From NCBI GenBank assembly GCA_002771015.1, contig PCUO01000007.1:10388-36971 (forward strand): a stretch of DNA of 26,584 bases, in the 5' to 3' direction. Below, in pieces: positions 8,273 through 14,646 of this stretch. Made by a program: the position numbers and the translations under genes. A model generated the notes under the pieces. It ran no database searches. It was not told the DNA's origin and saw nothing but the letters and a program-made list of their open reading frames with translations. Each line of letters begins with the position of its first letter. Positions within the stretch are counted from its first letter, which is position 1. This stretch comes from Candidatus Yonathbacteria bacterium CG17_big_fil_post_rev_8_21_14_2_50_43_9 (lineage in GTDB: Bacteria > Patescibacteriota > Minisyncoccia > Phycocordibacterales > UBA1550).

Positions 8273-8294
8273 TGCTATACTATTAGGATATAAT
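8273..8294 (+). promoter_or_regulatory. Candidate pilB promoter
   Basis: TGC-TATACT (8273-8281) is an extended -10. A second exact TATAAT is at 8289-8294. A further TATAAT lies at 8196-8201. No convincing -35 is seen. The stretch 8063-8417 otherwise holds no supported gene: it contains these sites, a small GAATT-AGCA-AATTC hairpin near 8316-8329 and the heptamer array. A transcript from here would have a leader of about 120-130 bases. Confidence 0.4.
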
Positions 8295-8370
8295 GTCGAA
8301 TGTAGAATATTGACGAATTAGCAAATTCGCACTTGGCGCTATAGAAAAAACAGAGGACTCTTTTGATCCC

Positions 8371-8447
8371 TTTCAACTTTCAACTTTCAACATTCGATAT
8401 TCGATATTCAACACAAAGTGACCGTTAACAACAAACAACTCAAAGAA
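8371..8447 (+). repeat. Heptanucleotide-period array across the pilB start
   Basis: Eleven consecutive 7-base units in one register: TTTCAAC three times, ATTCGAT twice, ATTCAAC, ACAAAGT, GACCGTT, AACAACA, AACAACT, CAAAGAA. The first six are near-identical; the last five are degenerate. The pilB GTG (8418) lies inside the array, so the first codons (TVNNKQLKE) come from it. Confidence 0.8.
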
Positions 8448-10166
8448 TTTATAGCAGACTCGGGGCTCGTGCCACGCACAGAGCTTGACCTTGCAGAAAA
8501 ACAATCTGAGGAAAAGAAAACATATCTCGGAAATCTTCTCGTTTCTAGTGGAAAAATTTCAGAAGATGGTCTTCGTCGCACCGAGGCATACATTTTGGGC
8601 ATCCCGTTCGTAAACTTAAAAGGACAAAAAATTGATTTTGAAGTTCTTTCTCTCATACCAGAACCTATTGCGAGAAAGAACAACATTGTTGCATTTAAAA
8701 AAACCACTACAGCTCTTGAGGTTGCAATGTTGGACACCGACGACCTTGGCGCTATTGAATTCGTAAAAAAGAAAGTGGGATTAAAAATTCTCCCGCGACT
8801 CACTGATCAGGAATCAATAAAGGGTGTTCTTCTCCAGTATCAAAAAAGTTTGAAAGCCGAGTTTGGAGATATAATAGAAAAAGAAGCTAGCGCCTTAAAG
8901 ATGGTCTCGGAAGGAGAGGGCCCACAGAGCGAAGAAGAACTAAAAAAACTCGCAGAGGATTTGCCTGTTGTAAAAATTGTAGACACTTTGCTTAATCATG
9001 CCATTATTCAAGGAGCATCAGACATTCATATAGAGCCACTTGATGCGCAAGTTGTAATTCGTTACCGTATTGACGGGATATTGCATGATGCAATGGTTTT
9101 GCCAAAGACAGCTGCGGCTGGCATCGTGGCACGCGTGAAGGTCCTCGCAAACTTGAAGCTTGACGAAAAACGTCTCCCACAAGACGGACGTTTCAAAATA
9201 GAATCTGCAGGAGAAAAAGTTGCGTTCCGTGTTTCAACGTTGCCAACATATTACGGCGAGAAAACCGTTATGCGTCTTTTGCGTGAAGCTGTTTCGGGCT
9301 TTACTCTAGAGGGGCTAGGTTTTATTGGGATCAACCTTGAGCGTATTCATGAGGCAACAAAACAGCACGTCGGTATGATACTCACCACAGGTCCAACTGG
9401 GTCTGGTAAATCAACAACGCTTTATACAATTCTAGATTTGGTTAATAGCCCAGAGGTAAACATCTCTACTATTGAGGATCCTATTGAATATCAAATGGCG
9501 CGCGTGAACCAAACACAAGTGAAGTCTGAGATTGGGCTCACGTTTGCGTCCGGGCTCCGCACGCTTATGCGTCAGGATCCAGATATTATTATGGTCGGCG
9601 AAATCCGTGATAATGAAACGGCGTCTCTCGCAGTGAATGCCGCGCTTACCGGGCACCTCGTACTCTCTACTCTCCACACCAATTCTGCGGCGTCAACAAT
9701 GCCACGTCTTATTGATATGGACATTGAGCCGTTTCTGATTGTTTCTACGGTGAATGTTATTATTTCGCAACGACTTGTCCGTCGACTCACTAATGTGAAT
9801 GAAAAGTATTTTCTTAGCACAGATGAAATAAACGCGCTCAAAAAATCTATGGACCTTGATCGCATTATGAATGTTTTGAAGGAAGAAAAAATTGTCTCGC
9901 AAAATGCAGAATGGAAAGACGTGCCACTTTATCGCCCACAAAAATCAACTGACAGCGAGGATGGTTACAATGGACGCGTTGGAATTCATGAAGTTCTAAA
10001 AATGTCTCCAACAATACGCGACCTTGTGATAAAAGGGGAAACAGCGACTATTGTTGAGGGTCAGGCGCGCAAAGAGGGAATGCTCACGATGACCGAGGAC
10101 GGTATGATAAAAGCTGTGCAGGGTCTTACGAGCATAGAGGAGATTTTCCGTGTGGTTTCGGAATAA
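8418..10166 (+). CDS. pilB: Type IV pilus assembly ATPase, PilB/GspE family
   Basis: A cytoplasmic hexameric ATPase of 582 residues that powers pilus extension. The N-terminal MshEN-like domain (about 1-145) includes LGIPFVNL. The NTPase core carries the NTD motif ASDIHIEP (200-207), Walker A GPTGSGKSTT (325-334), the Asp box EDPIEYQ, Walker B DPDIIMVGEIRD (387-398) and the His box TGHLVLSTLHTN (411-422). The zinc-binding tetracysteine region that usually follows VRRL is absent: after LVRRLTNVNEKYFLSTDEI there are no cysteines. The GTG start is inferred; no other start lies upstream in frame after the array, and no ribosome binding site is visible. First gene of the pilus operon. Confidence 0.95.
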   Translation: MTVNNKQLKEFIADSGLVPRTELDLAEKQSEEKKTYLGNLLVSSGKISEDGLRRTEAYILGIPFVNLKGQKIDFEVLSLIPEPIARKNNIVAFKKTTTALEVAMLDTDDLGAIEFVKKKVGLKILPRLTDQESIKGVLLQYQKSLKAEFGDIIEKEASALKMVSEGEGPQSEEELKKLAEDLPVVKIVDTLLNHAIIQGASDIHIEPLDAQVVIRYRIDGILHDAMVLPKTAAAGIVARVKVLANLKLDEKRLPQDGRFKIESAGEKVAFRVSTLPTYYGEKTVMRLLREAVSGFTLEGLGFIGINLERIHEATKQHVGMILTTGPTGSGKSTTLYTILDLVNSPEVNISTIEDPIEYQMARVNQTQVKSEIGLTFASGLRTLMRQDPDIIMVGEIRDNETASLAVNAALTGHLVLSTLHTNSAASTMPRLIDMDIEPFLIVSTVNVIISQRLVRRLTNVNEKYFLSTDEINALKKSMDLDRIMNVLKEEKIVSQNAEWKDVPLYRPQKSTDSEDGYNGRVGIHEVLKMSPTIRDLVIKGETATIVEGQARKEGMLTMTEDGMIKAVQGLTSIEEIFRVVSE

Positions 10167-10343: not shown

Positions 10344-11558
10344 ATGCCAAAATTTAAATACCAAGTTCGTGAACTCTCAGGAGAGTATACATCAGGCGAG
10401 ATGGGAGCCAAGGATCGTTTTGCTGTTGCTTCCGAACTTCGCGCTAACGGAAAGTCTGTCGTGTCTGTAGAAGAGGTTGCTGTAGGGTTTGTAATTAATA
10501 TCGACAGCATCAACGAGATGCTTTCTCGCGTGAAAGTTCGCGAGCTTATTACTTTTTCTCACAACCTGAGCGCTATGATGACGGCAGGACTCTCCTTGTC
10601 TCGCGGGCTTTCCATTCAGGAGCGTCAAACAAAAAATCCCGCTCTCAAAAAAACACTGAAGACTTTGATAGCTGAGATTAGCAAGGGCTCTACCTTGTCG
10701 GCAGGAATGGAAAAGTCCCCAAAAGTATTTTCTCCAATTTTCATTTCTATGGTGCGCGCGGGCGAGGAGTCTGGAAGCCTTTCAGACGCGCTCCTTACAC
10801 TAGGTGACCAGCTTGAAAAAAGCTATCTTTTGAAAAAGAAAATAAAAGGGGCGATGATTTATCCCTCTGTTGTTATCGCGACACTCATTATTATCGGTGT
10901 GCTGATGTTTATTTATGTTGTTCCAACACTCGCGGCAACATTCAAAGAGCTCAACACTGAGCTTCCAACAAGCACAAAAGTAATTATGTGGATTTCAGAG
11001 TTTCTTTCTAATCATTTGATTGTTGGCTTAGCTATTGTTGCAACAATAGGAACAGCGATATTTTTTGCTCTTCGCACAAAACAAGGTCAGCGCGTACTTG
11101 AATTCATATCGTTCAAGTTGCCGGTAGTTGGGGATCTTGTGCGACAGTCCAACGCGGCTCGCACTGCTCGCACATTGTCGTCGCTCCTTTCATCCGGGGT
11201 GGATATGTTGGAGGCGATATCTATCACAAAAGATGTTTTGCAAAACTCGTATTACAAGGATAGGTTGAAATTGGCGGGTGAGCGGGTTCAAAAAGGTATT
11301 CCATTGTCGTCGGTTTTTGCAGAGACAGATATTTATCCGCTTTTGGTCGGGGATATGATAGAAGTGGGCGAGGAAACAGGAAAGTTATCAGAGATGCTTC
11401 TCAACCTTGCGACTTATTACGAGAATGAAGTTGATGAGGCGACAAAAAATATGTCTACAATCATTGAGCCGGTTTTGATGGTGTTCATTGGCGCATCAGT
11501 CGGGTTCTTTGCTGTTTCTATGATTTCTCCTATGTACAGCGTGATGAGCAATGTGTAG
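10344..11558 (+). CDS. pilC: Type IV pilus inner-membrane platform protein, PilC/GspF family
   Basis: A 404-residue polytopic platform protein that couples the ATPase to pilin insertion. It has the two tandem T2SF domains. The first (about 63-190) includes FSHNLSAMMTAGLSLSRGL and MVRAGEESGSLSDAL. The second (about 270-390) includes ARTLSSLLSSGVDMLEAI and MIEVGEETGKLSEML. Membrane helices are at about 172-195 (VVIATLIIIGVLMFIYVVP), 220-240 and 375-397. Domain order and length are normal for the family. The first pseudopilin gene starts 17 bases after the stop. Confidence 0.95.
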   Translation: MPKFKYQVRELSGEYTSGEMGAKDRFAVASELRANGKSVVSVEEVAVGFVINIDSINEMLSRVKVRELITFSHNLSAMMTAGLSLSRGLSIQERQTKNPALKKTLKTLIAEISKGSTLSAGMEKSPKVFSPIFISMVRAGEESGSLSDALLTLGDQLEKSYLLKKKIKGAMIYPSVVIATLIIIGVLMFIYVVPTLAATFKELNTELPTSTKVIMWISEFLSNHLIVGLAIVATIGTAIFFALRTKQGQRVLEFISFKLPVVGDLVRQSNAARTARTLSSLLSSGVDMLEAISITKDVLQNSYYKDRLKLAGERVQKGIPLSSVFAETDIYPLLVGDMIEVGEETGKLSEMLLNLATYYENEVDEATKNMSTIIEPVLMVFIGASVGFFAVSMISPMYSVMSNV

Positions 11559-11565
11559 GTTGGGG

Positions 11566-11650
11566 AACAATTGACATGAAACAATTAACAACTAACAAGA
11601 TTTTCGACGAGTGGGTTTTCGCGAAGCGAAAACCCACTGTCAACTGTTTT
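11566..11650 (+). repeat. Heptamer array with central hairpin, first pseudopilin leader
   Basis: From 11567 the sequence reads as 7-base units: ACAATTG, ACATGAA, ACAATTA, ACAACTA, ACAAGAT, then less regular ones, ending CTGTCAA, CTGTTTT. The middle is a perfect 13-bp hairpin (11610-11638), AGTGGGTTTTCGC and GCGAAAACCCACT around GAA. Outer parts also pair: AACAATTGACA near the left end with TGTCAACTGTT at 11638-11648, one mismatch. The array encodes residues 1-25 of the protein. Confidence 0.7.
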
Positions 11651-12106
11651 CACCGTGGCTTCACCGCTCTTGAAATACTCATTGTCATTGCAATTCTAGC
11701 GATTCTTTTGGCGACTATATTACCGTCATTTATAAACTTTCGCAGGAGCAGTCTCTTGAATACAGACACAATGAATCTCGTAACAATTATCAACCGCGCG
11801 CGTTTACTTTCAGTCTCTTCAAAAGATGATGAGCGGTACGGTATACACCTTGAGTCTGGTAAGGTGGTGCTGTTCAAGGGAGACACATACTCCGAAGGCG
11901 AGCCAACAAATGAAACTCATTTGTTCAGCACGGACCTCACTCTTTCAATTATTGCGATAAGTGGCGGTGGTTCAGAAATTTTGTTTGAGAAAGTTACCGG
12001 CGCGACGACTGATGGTAAAAATGCAACTACGACACTCCTTGTTACTGGCACTACATCAAGTACGACAGTGTTGATATATCCAACAGGAATTGCGACTATA
12101 TATTAA
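11576..12106 (+). CDS. Type IV pseudopilin 1 (GspH/FimT-like)
   Basis: A 176-residue prepilin-like protein. The class III signal is G28|FTALEILIVIAILAILLA, with Glu at +5 of the mature form and a hydrophobic helix of about 20 residues. The remaining soluble domain has strand-rich segments (ERYGIHLESGKVVLFKGDTY) resembling GspH/FimT minor pilins. The leader before Gly28 is 28 residues and hydrophilic, longer than the 6-15 typical of type IVa prepilins. There is no in-frame ATG, GTG or TTG between 11576 and the cleavage site, so the long leader must be translated. GGGGA lies about ten bases upstream of the ATG. It probably belongs to a pilus tip or assembly-priming complex with the next three genes. 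Confidence 0.88.
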   Translation: MKQLTTNKIFDEWVFAKRKPTVNCFHRGFTALEILIVIAILAILLATILPSFINFRRSSLLNTDTMNLVTIINRARLLSVSSKDDERYGIHLESGKVVLFKGDTYSEGEPTNETHLFSTDLTLSIIAISGGGSEILFEKVTGATTDGKNATTTLLVTGTTSSTTVLIYPTGIATIY

Positions 12107-12109
12107 TAT

Positions 12110-12200
12110 AGAATATGGAATACAAAATATCAGAAAAAAGAATTTGGAAAAGAGAATGGAGAATCAAAAGTCCCCATTCCCCATTCCCTGTTTCCCATTC
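12110..12200 (+). repeat. 13-unit heptamer array, second pseudopilin leader
   Basis: 91 bases, thirteen units in one register. The left part is GAAT-type (AGAATAT, GGAATAC, ... GAGAATG, GAGAATC). The right part is ATTC-type (AAAAGTC, CCCATTC, CCCATTC, CCTGTTT, CCCATTC). Because GAAT and ATTC are complementary, the two halves can fold on each other. The CCCCATT words resemble the heptameric STRR repeats known from cyanobacteria. Confidence 0.75.
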
Positions 12201-12675
12201 TGATCAACGCGGTTTCGGGCTCATAGAGGTTGTCATTGGCTCTGCTGTTCTTTCGGTCGCGGTTTTTGGAATCTCTGGTTTTTTTCACACAGTTTTAAAG
12301 ACGAGCAGAATTACAGAGTCAGCTGTTCAAGGAGACTACCTTTTGGAGGAGGGGATTGAGGTGGCGAAGATTTTTCGCGACATGAGCTACACGAGCAATA
12401 TTAAAAATATGTCCACCACTACCACCTATTATTTTTTTTGGAGCGATACAAACTGGGCAACCACAACAACCAAAACAATTGTTGATGGAAAATATGAACG
12501 CAGTCTTACTTTTGAAGATGTGAAACGCGACTCACTCACAAAAGATATTTCTGCAACAGGAGTTTACGATCCAGACGTGAAGCTCGTTGCTGTGTCGGTG
12601 GCATGGTGGACGCCTGTAGTAGGAACAACAACACGTTCAATACAGACATACATAGTGAATCTTTTTAACAATTAA
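12115..12675 (+). CDS. Type IV pseudopilin 2 (PilV/GspI-like)
   Basis: A 186-residue prepilin-like protein. The cleavage motif is G33|FGLIEVVIGSAVLSVAVFGI with Glu at +5. The mature part has YLLEEGIEVAKIFRDMSY, typical of PilV/GspI-like minor pilins, and a Thr-rich mid-region. The 33-residue leader (MEYKISEKRIWKREW...) is encoded almost wholly by the heptamer array at 12110-12200. No alternative in-frame start lies between the ATG and the cleavage site. The gene starts nine bases after the previous stop with no visible ribosome binding site, suggesting translational coupling. Confidence 0.87.
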   Translation: MEYKISEKRIWKREWRIKSPHSPFPVSHSDQRGFGLIEVVIGSAVLSVAVFGISGFFHTVLKTSRITESAVQGDYLLEEGIEVAKIFRDMSYTSNIKNMSTTTTYYFFWSDTNWATTTTKTIVDGKYERSLTFEDVKRDSLTKDISATGVYDPDVKLVAVSVAWWTPVVGTTTRSIQTYIVNLFNN

Positions 12676-12680
12676 GTGGG

Positions 12681-12771
12681 TAGAATATAGAATATGGAAT
12701 ATAGAATAAAAAAAATCATACAAAGAGGAATAAAGAATATTCAAAATTCGATATTCAAAATTCGATATTCA
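12681..12771 (+). repeat. 13-unit heptamer array, third pseudopilin leader
   Basis: 91 bases, thirteen units in one register, the same length as the array at 12110. Left part: TAGAATA, TAGAATA, TGGAATA, TAGAATA, then irregular units. Right part: ATATTCA, AAATTCG, ATATTCA, AAATTCG, ATATTCA. The halves are complementary in type (GAAT against ATTC), so the array can form a hairpin. Confidence 0.8.
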
Positions 12772-13293
12772 GCCCAAAAAGGGTTCACTTTGGTGGAGAT
12801 GATTATCTACATCGCTTTTTTTGCGATTCTGTCTGTTCTCTCCATCAACGCAACAATTTTGGTAATGAAGTCATTTTACACACTGCGTATAAATCAAAGC
12901 ATAAGTCAATCTGCCACGACCGCGCTTGAGAGAATGAGTCGCGAGATTCGAAATGCGTACAGCATTGATATGGTCAACAGCACTTTTGGCACGAACCCCG
13001 GCAGGCTAACGCTCCTAACAAAAGACGATCTAGGCGCCCTAACTACCATTGAGTTTTATACTACTGCTGGCAACCAGATCAATATGAAGGTTGGTGGTGT
13101 TGAACAAGGGTCGTTAATGACAAAAACGGTTTTAGCGACTAATCTTGTTTTTCGTTCAATGTACAACGGAACAGCGACTTCTACGAATTCAAAAGCGGTC
13201 AAAATTGAAATGACACTTGCCGACAACAGGGCTGGTATCTCTAAAACAGTAAAGTATTATGATACTATAGTATTGAGAGGTTCAATGCATTAA
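12694..13293 (+). CDS. Type IV pseudopilin 3 (PilW/GspJ-like)
   Basis: A 199-residue prepilin-like protein. The cleavage motif is G30|FTLVEMIIYIAFFAILSVL with Glu at +5. The mature region includes ATTALERMSREIRNAYSIDM, the SxSxxxALxxMxREIRxA pattern seen in PilW/GspJ-like minor pilins. The 30-residue leader, very basic and Ile-rich (MEYRIKKIIQRGIKNIQ...), is encoded by the heptamer array at 12681-12771 and has no in-frame ATG, GTG or TTG inside it. Gene spacing to the neighbours is 18 and 6 bases, so it is part of the operon. Confidence 0.87.
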   Translation: MEYRIKKIIQRGIKNIQNSIFKIRYSAQKGFTLVEMIIYIAFFAILSVLSINATILVMKSFYTLRINQSISQSATTALERMSREIRNAYSIDMVNSTFGTNPGRLTLLTKDDLGALTTIEFYTTAGNQINMKVGGVEQGSLMTKTVLATNLVFRSMYNGTATSTNSKAVKIEMTLADNRAGISKTVKYYDTIVLRGSMH

Positions 13294-13299
13294 TTCAGT

Positions 13300-14646
13300 A
13301 TGAGCAAGCACTACGTCAATCGTAAAAAGGGAGCCGCAATCATTACCGCTGTTATATTTTTTGTCGTTATTTCTGTTACTATGGCGGTCGGACTTTCTTC
13401 TCCTGTTGTCCGCGAGTATGTAACTGCGCGCGATTTTGAGAAATCCAAGGGCGCGTATTATTTGTCTGAAGCCGGAATGGAGGATGCTGTTTACCGTCTT
13501 AGGAAACCAAGAGCGATTGACGCGCAAGAAGTTATTTCACTCGGTGGCAACACTGCAACAACGACTATTACAACTGTAAGCGCAACACAAAAGACCATAA
13601 GCTCTCTTGGTGATATTTTTAGAAACACACGTAGGGTAAAATCCACAATTACCACTACAACTGGTGAGTCGTTTGTGTATGGTGTGTGGGCCGGGCAAGG
13701 TGGCGTTAGAATGAATGGTAATCTTATCAACTCATATATTTCTGGAAACCTCTATTCAATAGGACCTATTTGTGGCGGTGGAAGTTCTGGTGCAACATGT
13801 ACTGGAGGCAGTGGAGCGAGCTTAATTACGGGAACTGTTATTTCTGGAGGAACTTCAGGATTAAATGGGACTATTGGTAGAATTCAAAATCAAGGAGATG
13901 CTTCTATGTACGCGGGGACCATCAAGAGTTCAACAATTTCAGGTGTAGCATATTGCAACACAATCTCAGGTTCTTCAACCTCCACTTGCCAGACACTTCC
14001 TGTACAGCCACCAGTAGAGCTCCCTATTACTCGAGGAGATATAGAAAACTGGGAAGCAATATCTACGGCAGGGGGAAGTGTGACGTGTACAGGCGGTAAG
14101 TATTATATTAATGGTACAATAAGCATTGGTCCTAAAAAGATTCCTTGTGATTTAGAAACAAGTGGAAGCAACTACACTATTACACTCACGGGGCCCATCT
14201 GGGTAGAAGGTGATATTAAAATTAATAACAACCAATCATGGCGCGTTGACCCATCTCTTGTGGGGCAAAGTATTATGGTAATTGCAGACAAGCAAACTGC
14301 GAGTACAACAGCCGGTACAATTGAAATTGAAAACAATCCAGTATTTTCTGGTGCCCCTGGTGGAAATTCGTGGGTGATGCTTCTATCGGAAAACACAGGT
14401 GCTTCTATTGGTGCTGACGCAGAGGCTATTTGGCTTGAAAACAATGTATCCGGTGCACTCCTTCTCTACGCTAGACTCGGGGATGTTAAATTACAGAATA
14501 ACTCTAATATTAATGAGGTTACAGCGTATCAGATAACATTAGAAAATAATGCTGTAGTGAATTATCTTTCAGGGTTACAAAATACGCTGTTTACTTCAGG
14601 GCCTGGGGGCGCGTGGTATGTGCAGGGCTGGAAGGAAGGGCAGTAA
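13300..14646 (+). CDS. PilX-like pilus-associated protein with a beta-helix-like tail
   Basis: A 448-residue protein. The N-terminus (KKGAAIITAVIFFVVISVTM, about 10-29) is a hydrophobic helix like that of PilX, and is followed by AYYLSEAGMEDAVYRLRK, a pattern typical of PilX_N domains. There is no Glu at +5. The remainder is rich in Gly, Ser, Thr and Asn. It contains short repeats such as GNLINSYISGNLYSIG and IEIENNPVFSG and WLENNVSGALLLYARLGDVK, which suggest a right-handed beta-helix or bactofilin-like fold. Three Cys pairs in the middle could form disulfides. It is the last gene of the pilus operon, before a large terminator, and may be exposed at the pilus tip. Confidence 0.82.
   Translation: MSKHYVNRKKGAAIITAVIFFVVISVTMAVGLSSPVVREYVTARDFEKSKGAYYLSEAGMEDAVYRLRKPRAIDAQEVISLGGNTATTTITTVSATQKTISSLGDIFRNTRRVKSTITTTTGESFVYGVWAGQGGVRMNGNLINSYISGNLYSIGPICGGGSSGATCTGGSGASLITGTVISGGTSGLNGTIGRIQNQGDASMYAGTIKSSTISGVAYCNTISGSSTSTCQTLPVQPPVELPITRGDIENWEAISTAGGSVTCTGGKYYINGTISIGPKKIPCDLETSGSNYTITLTGPIWVEGDIKINNNQSWRVDPSLVGQSIMVIADKQTASTTAGTIEIENNPVFSGAPGGNSWVMLLSENTGASIGADAEAIWLENNVSGALLLYARLGDVKLQNNSNINEVTAYQITLENNAVVNYLSGLQNTLFTSGPGGAWYVQGWKEGQ

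Follow-up and report, generated by a model that had tools for sequence, protein, structure and literature searches.

Palindromic heptad elements at the start codons and leaders of prepilin genes in Candidatus Yonathbacteria

Our results reveal that the leaders of three consecutive prepilins (P1, P2 and P3) of a Candidatus Yonathbacteria genome are encoded by palindromic DNA built of 7-base words (heptads), similar to elements that occur genome-wide, commonly close behind stop codons. We consider it probable that these elements are tolerated as prepilin leaders because such leaders are cleaved off, and that they are sometimes copied between pilins as start-plus-leader cassettes. The analysis was performed on a stretch of 26,584 nt (hereafter, the window), whose source genome comprises 638 kb in 41 contigs, and was extended to related genomes. 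A preliminary description of heptad arrays at these genes is partly confirmed: the observation is real and wider than first described, with the corrections given below.

The pilin operon and its three heptad elements

The operon encodes, in this order, a PilB-like ATPase, a PilC-like protein, the three prepilins and a fourth gene that we judged to be pilus-type (Table 1), at which no heptad leader was seen. All three prepilins score above the curated cut-off of PF07963 (N_methyl; 21.2 bits), and the same genome carries a prepilin peptidase gene (PF01478, 39.3 bits; G000:C10:10226-10567). Relatives of the T2SSF protein are found in the Candidatus Yonathbacteria assemblies UBA12043 (94% identity) and UBA11698 (93% identity), and this anchor is present in 16/16 same-genus genomes.

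Table 1. Coordinates of the pilin operon genes and heptad elements in the window
Feature	Position	Strand	Description
Further element, intergenic	8284..8417	+	Adjoins GTG start of pilB-like gene; lag-7 windows 0.55 and 0.69; 84-base peak 0.60
PilB-like ATPase (T2SSE + MshEN)	8418..10166	+	Profile matches; GTG start
PilC-like inner-membrane protein (T2SSF)	10344..11558	+	Profile match; anchor for ortholog search, 16 genomes
Element 1 (CAATTGAC/GTCAATTG type)	11562..11652	+	GGGGAACAATTGAC... to ...GTCAACTGTTTTC; includes P1 start codon; ends by eye
Pilin 1 (P1)	11576..12106	+	Leader 27 aa + Gly, glycine codon 11657; PF07963 N_methyl 24.1 bits
Hairpin core of element 1	11610..11638	.	Perfect 13-bp stem, 3-nt loop
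Element 2 (GAATNNN/NNNATTC type)	12107..12205	+	Directly after P1 stop, includes P2 start codon; ends by eye
Pilin 2 (P2)	12115..12675	+	Leader 32 aa + Gly, glycine codon 12211; PF07963 22.1 bits
Element 3 (TGGGTAGAAT...ATTCAGCCCA)	12677..12776	+	31-nt arms 81% complementary; includes P3 start codon
Pilin 3 (P3)	12694..13293	+	Leader 29 aa + Gly, glycine codon 12781; PF07963 22.9 bits
Fourth downstream gene	13300..14646	+	GAAIITA N-terminus, DUF7305 match below cut-off; pilus-type by position + N-terminus

The ORF of each window prepilin begins at an ATG (11576, 12115 and 12694) inside repeat DNA. Heptad DNA does encode the leaders, as had been claimed, with the qualification that array 1 is only weakly heptad. 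Specifically, the lag-7 self-identity is 0.60 for array 2 (12110-12200) and 0.65 for array 3 (12681-12771), with best 84-base windows of 0.64 and 0.65, respectively, vs. a maximum of 0.51 and a mean maximum of 0.44 in 100 dinucleotide shuffles of the whole window. Array 1 (11567-11650) reaches 0.44, equal to the mean shuffle maximum, and the lag-7 value of its leader region (0.40) is above 200/200 shuffles of its own composition. Across the window, the 84-base lag-7 value exceeds 0.47 at three places: arrays 2 and 3, and the element directly before pilB, which the preliminary description had overlooked together with arrays in the leaders of a pilin operon on contig C10.

The "strict register" and "12 units" ascribed to array 1 are wrong because only about five heptads are present, followed by the perfect hairpin at 11610-11638, with CAATTGAC-type arms flanking it. 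Arrays 2 and 3 are 7-base arrays by periodicity but not uniform tandem runs; their words switch half-way from GAAT (left arm) to ATTC (right arm), which makes each an imperfect palindrome, with arms 77% complementary in array 2 (12139-12164/12176-12201) and 81% in array 3 (12677-12707/12746-12776). The statement that both measure exactly 91 bases hinges on where their soft ends are placed. Within the words, GAAT or ATTC is nearly constant and three bases are free, with no tandem copying of one fixed word; the five period-7 rows that TRF reports within 11580-12771 match at only 66-91%, and a perfect 14-base unit in 2.5 copies (12737-12771) is the window's exception to mostly degenerate units. 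The leader lengths agree with the 28-33 residues given before (27, 32 and 29 residues plus the glycine), and so does the lack of alternative starts: none of the three has an in-frame ATG, GTG or TTG between the start ATG and the cleavage glycine.

Heptad palindromes across the genome

To count arrays genome-wide, N positions were masked and all lags from 3 to 13 except 7 were required to be lower; control lags were taken from 5, 8, 10, 11 and 13 because multiples of 3 run high, as expected from codons. The scan, a check proposed with the preliminary description, returned 28 arrays in 247,640 bases of the window's own genome (0, 3, 3, 6 and 3 for the control lags, in the order given) and 72 in 367,093 bases of genome G008 of the same genus (0, 3, 8, 7 and 7). 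When the condition of lower other lags was dropped, lag 15 gave 39 places vs. 36 for lag 7 at 0.53. The arrays belong to elements of about 80-150 nt, with arms of GAATNNN/NNNATTC or CAATTGAC/GTCAATTG words and often a hairpin core. No predicted gene is overlapped by 16/28 arrays in the own genome and 38/72 in G008, and, where an array with a recognisable word follows a gene by no more than 160 nt (37 genes, pilin-operon genes included), the first word begins 3-11 nt past the stop codon in 29 cases. One element elsewhere (L015:5800-5930) lies between convergent genes, its GAAT arms close behind both stops and sharing one hairpin, a layout like that of a two-way terminator. More broadly, five consecutive GAATNNN words were found in 42/192 genomes drawn from the phylum, and this kind of element is therefore widespread but patchy, with the caveat that the backward control of the pattern matched in 11 genomes and sometimes exceeded it (e.g., 24 vs. 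2 in G435).

Among the 556 predicted genes of the own genome and G008, 26 array midpoints fall within genes: 11 within 130 nt of the start of eight genes that the prepilin motif identified (two of which had no Pfam match when tested), one in a further pilus-type gene overlooked by the motif and 13 deeper in other genes; a weak one (0.53) has as its host a gene that we take to encode RNase HII. The count for pilin leaders is too low since the crude gene caller overlooked P3 of the window. The prepilin leader is the commonest 5' coding site of the elements in the two sampled genomes. In-frame arrays also occur in genes matching tRNA_Me_trans (MnmA), Formyl_trans (Fmt), TP_methylase (presumably RsmI) and prepilin peptidase (PilD-like), as well as in a C-terminus that we take to be that of NusA; in-frame heptad elements of RsmI-, MnmA-, Fmt- and prepilin-peptidase-like genes were seen at L027:6958-7656, L116:4345-5469, L125:13193-14080 and L079:2867-3694. 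The ortholog comparison covered RsmI, whose loop contains heptad-coded residues in 2/14 genomes; of the remaining 12 genomes, 11 have a different and shorter sequence at this place and one (G010) a different, longer insertion.

Alternatively, the elements might be RNA hairpins between cistrons that tune pilin expression (by occluding the start codon, altering mRNA stability or acting on ribosomes past the stop, as described for E. coli REPs), with leader coding as a by-product. The predicted folds of the window elements are consistent with this idea (z of -3.75 for element 1 at 11556-11665, -2.19 for element 2 and -5.34 for element 3, with 0, 7 and 0 of 200 shuffles as stable, respectively), as is the frequent position 3-11 nt behind stop codons, inside the 15-nt range for which the cited account of REPs reports ribosome stalling (PMC12306157). 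However, the start-codon accessibility of leaders with arrays (0.20-0.83) overlaps that of leaders without significant arrays (0.29-0.89), and relatives have unrelated sequences, or none, in place of the elements. Start-codon occlusion was rejected given that accessibility varies without pattern. Hence, we find it somewhat unlikely that RNA structure is the main account, and regard RNA effects behind stop codons as a serious rival or companion role.

A further alternative is that the elements are REP-type sequences moved by a Y1 (RAYT-like) transposase. The palindromes near stop codons and the Y1_Tnp matches in 14/16 genomes speak for this idea, but G009 has none and 30 GAAT-array matches, vs. 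six and two, respectively, in G003 and four and zero in G004. We rejected the Y1 transposase as mover, there being no visible relation to element density upon inspection of the 16 genomes, and rate this mechanism the least probable of those considered.

Prepilin leaders of the genus: arrays, reading frame and junction

We examined 143 prepilins of the genus, out of 153 places derived from 196 PF07963 matches (ten were dropped by the narrow motif search). Arrays recur at these genes, as the preliminary description had anticipated: among the matches listed, 26/143 prepilins reach a lag-7 self-identity of at least 0.53 over the 120 nt that precede the glycine, vs. 0-3 for control lags. The fraction of array-bearing prepilins tracks the genome-wide GAAT heptad count (Spearman 0.81, p 1.6e-4, n=16 genomes), although a single array-bearing prepilin is present in each of three genomes with few GAAT heptads (2, 0 and 0 matches). 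Here and below, counts taken over related genomes are not independent. In the orthologous operon, 41 leaders were recovered from 14 genomes (none from G013 and G014, and one P1 was not recognised), of which 32 were long enough for the shuffle test and nine too short. The lag-7 value is above all 200 shuffles in 13 of the 32, i.e., three each in the window genome, G009 and G008, two in G001 and one each in G002 and G010. These array-bearing leaders span 26-52 residues, and 26 of the 28 leaders without a significant array span 3-24 residues; the remaining two, of G015 (63 and 49 residues), carry palindromes without heptads. A single-assembly artefact was rejected, as similar leaders occur in other assemblies.

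Several side observations were made in the same operon. Downstream of the orthologous T2SSF gene, G013 (L075) and G014 (L077) have first a long prepilin-type open frame, of 502 and 610 codons, respectively, and not the three-pilin set; the G013 stretch ends shortly past this frame and G014 has a second one of 246 codons. Inserts without heptad structure were seen at the cleavage motif in P1 and P3 of G015 (L065), P1 of G003 (L066), P1 of G006 (L071) and P3 of G001 (L076), the last of which also contains some heptads. These inserts, some of them palindromic-looking, leave a second GFT-like motif upstream (e.g., GFTPTPT...GFT and GFTLQNFSRKNLGGFT), and are possibly another element family landing on the same codons.

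It is also conceivable that the arrays are 5' UTR and that translation begins from a non-standard codon near the cleavage site. In its favor, leaders span 3-24 residues in most array-less relatives, and ATGs at 7-9 codons from the glycine exist in some relatives with arrays (e.g., 7 and 9 codons in P1 of G009). Among the matches listed, an in-frame ATG lies at least 29 codons upstream in 20/26 array-bearing prepilins, and in only 11/26 is the closest possible start (ATG, GTG or TTG) found on the 5' side of the array middle; in the rest, all or part of the array could therefore be untranslated. The median leader, again among the matches listed, is 32 residues with arrays (n=26) vs. 10 without (n=102) when taken from the farthest ATG, and 17.5 vs. 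7 residues when taken from the nearest start. The three window genes, which have no in-frame ATG, GTG or TTG after the element, argue against the 5' UTR reading, and so does the reading frame. Among the matches listed, 21/26 array-bearing prepilins keep the coding frame open throughout the final 84 nt, vs. 16/52 for the other two sense frames (Fisher p 3.5e-5); in 53 intergenic arrays, 76/318 frames are open. Prepilins without arrays among the matches listed also show an excess in the coding frame (34/105 vs. 18/210 for other frames), as expected if the upstream DNA is partly leader.

The exact 25-mer ACAATTGACATGAAACAATTAACAA, which includes an in-frame ATG, provides another view of the same question. 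Six copies exist in the 16 genomes and 6/6 start a pilus-type gene with the frame open; the hosts are five prepilins and one G009 gene judged by its N-terminus, whose counterpart of the same type in G008 had no Pfam match. Allowing at most three mismatches adds five more copies, one at another prepilin and four non-coding. Where the pilin 25-mer reads ATGAAA, the four non-pilus near matches read ATGTAA (two), ATTTAA and ATAAAA, and their frame closes at once or after seven codons, which stands against the arrays being 5' UTR. We therefore rate that reading as unlikely. Most likely, the elements are translated at some pilins and form the leader that is later discarded; we infer from the sequence that the start-codon ATG would be translated and the leader cleaved by prepilin peptidase.

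The elements meet the cleavage motif at a nearly fixed distance. In the 297 genomes of the order that were searched, three ATTC heptads followed by 6-16 free bases and GGNTTY matched 21 times, in 14 genomes, vs. no match for the reversed pattern. Fifteen of the 21 are prepilins, in which the last ATTC precedes the glycine codon by 10 nt (13 cases) or 13 nt (two cases), and the six non-prepilin matches have spacings of 14, 10, 15, 12, 14 and 8. Among the prepilins with spacing 10, two of G096 and one of G154 come from other families of the order. Consistently, the last ATTC is 10 nt before the glycine in 12/18 genus prepilins with lag-7 of at least 0.5 and an ATTC within 45 nt, vs. 1/28 of those with lag-7 below 0.5. 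The frame alone does not require a spacing of 10, since 7, 13 and 16 are equally in frame. Shared ancestry of some leaders contributes to the fixed spacing; a fixed landing site, conversion via a motif in common and selection acting on the final residues may each play a part as well.

Evolution of the leaders and comparison with known systems

The leaders are largely or partly uncoupled from their pilins at several loci. Per-locus identity among the window genome, G009 and G008 is 82-88% for mature pilins and 55-65% for leaders (for P1, 83-87% vs. 55-65%), with one exception: the P2 leaders of the window and G008, which are 81% identical and of equal length (96 nt, substitutions only) and are inherited with the gene. 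Within G008, the reverse is observed; the P1, P2 and P3 leaders are 76-88% identical (P1 vs. P3, 88%), vs. 58-61% for the mature parts between loci. The block common to P1 and P3 of G008 begins ahead of the start codon and breaks off at GGTTTCAC, and a gene on another contig carries a third copy with the same start block. Part of this likeness is due to common heptad words, but the blocks also include non-heptad bases. Such strong within-genome identity is found in G008 only, the values for the window genome (57-64%) and G009 (60-68%) being near the level of unrelated leaders, although the first bases and start codon (a 25-base word) are common to all three leaders of G009. Similarly, the median leader similarity of same-genome pairs (12.5, n=84) is close to that of between-genome pairs (11.5, n=997), and therefore copying is limited to a minority of pairs; some between-genome pairs with unrelated mature parts (G015 vs. 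G008) score like the best.

These comparisons also bear on the proposal of the preliminary description that the arrays are contingency loci, in which slippage by one heptad would shift the leader frame and toggle each pilin on or off. The proposal draws on 7 being no multiple of 3, on window starts that lie inside arrays without downstream alternatives, on the perfect 14-base unit of array 3, and on near-perfect runs in some relatives (e.g., four TTCCCTA-type units in P2 of G008). However, the units are mostly degenerate, as the TRF matches indicate, and similar arrays are common between genes. Further, the P2 leaders of the window and G008 differ by substitutions only, and for P1 the length difference between the leaders of the window and of G009, 45 nt, is no multiple of 7. 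The whole-unit differences in copy number that had been proposed as a check were not seen between the three close species, and phase variation as the main role was rejected on this ground. Between close species, variation is mostly whole-element replacement. Hence, we consider the slippage switch very unlikely, although rare slippage may occur. Conservation of orthologous leaders at the amino-acid level without 7-base periodicity, which had been named as evidence against the repeats, was not found either, i.e., leaders of orthologs are not conserved.

Taken together, we favor the hypothesis that the elements are tolerated as cleaved leaders and occasionally copied. The three arrays are members of the genome-wide population of palindromic heptad elements that commonly sit just behind stop codons. 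At the window prepilins, each element stretches from the stop codon of the preceding gene to within about 5 nt of the cleavage-glycine codon and would therefore provide both start codon and leader peptide. Under the hypothesis, such a coding element could be tolerated because prepilin peptidase removes the leader, which has to offer little more than a basic end and an open frame. Pilin genes of some genomes may have received translatable versions from one another at the same junction, either by gene conversion at the shared GGTTTCAC coding motif or through insertion by some agent, and the resulting start-plus-leader cassettes would evolve separately from the mature pilins. A bolder form, which we entertain only tentatively, is that a mobile or gene-converting "leader donor" always lands equally far ahead of the cleavage motif, in many unrelated pilins and species, swaps their start and leader for its own, and thus circulates in translated form among a genome's pilin genes, since the leader is discarded. 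If the favored hypothesis is true, a cleaved leader is a safe harbour for repeat DNA in proteins, rewritable without harm to the mature part, and such Patescibacteria pilins have modular starts and leaders, to which orthologs are no guide. The nearly fixed junction and the several copies also make this a tractable place to study the origin and movement of heptad palindromes.

Heptad palindromes have long been known in cyanobacteria and other organisms, and cyanobacterial STRRs are heptamer repeats. In the titles and abstract openings listed by searches of the open-licence PMC literature, heptad arrays are named neither as prepilin leaders nor in Candidate Phyla Radiation genomes. TAACTGA repeats of Beggiatoaceae, some Cyanobacteria and Bacteroidetes are, in the cited account, 7-nt direct repeats of one word, mostly intergenic and often directly before starts, with few in ORFs, at protein ends (PMC4679880). 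The elements described here resemble these repeats in location, share with them and with STRRs the 7-nt unit and, as the preliminary description had remarked for heptads of other bacteria, similar words (CAATTGAC and CAACTGAC), but differ from TAACTGA repeats, as described there, in that words vary per array, arms are inverted into a palindrome and GAATNNN is dominant. Rickettsia palindromic elements (RPEs) are described as about 150 bp long, encoding a conserved peptide and lying in frame within unrelated proteins whose orthologs can lack them (PMC10969869). The elements studied here are likewise palindromic and genome-wide, and they too lie in frame within unrelated genes; in the case of RsmI, there are orthologs that lack them. 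By that description, RPEs are set apart from these degenerate heptads of 80-150 nt, which at the prepilin leader also supply a start codon. E. coli REPs, palindromes of which some lie within 15 nt behind stop codons according to the source cited above for stalling, resemble the present elements in this position; unlike REPs as portrayed there, the latter have a heptad structure, are translatable and show no visible link to Y1 transposase number. Finally, compared to type IV and type II prepilin leaders, the leaders reported here have the same G-F at the cleavage site, mostly a basic residue before it, and N_methyl matches over the cut-off, but those bearing arrays in the orthologous operon are 26-52 residues long and encoded by repeats.
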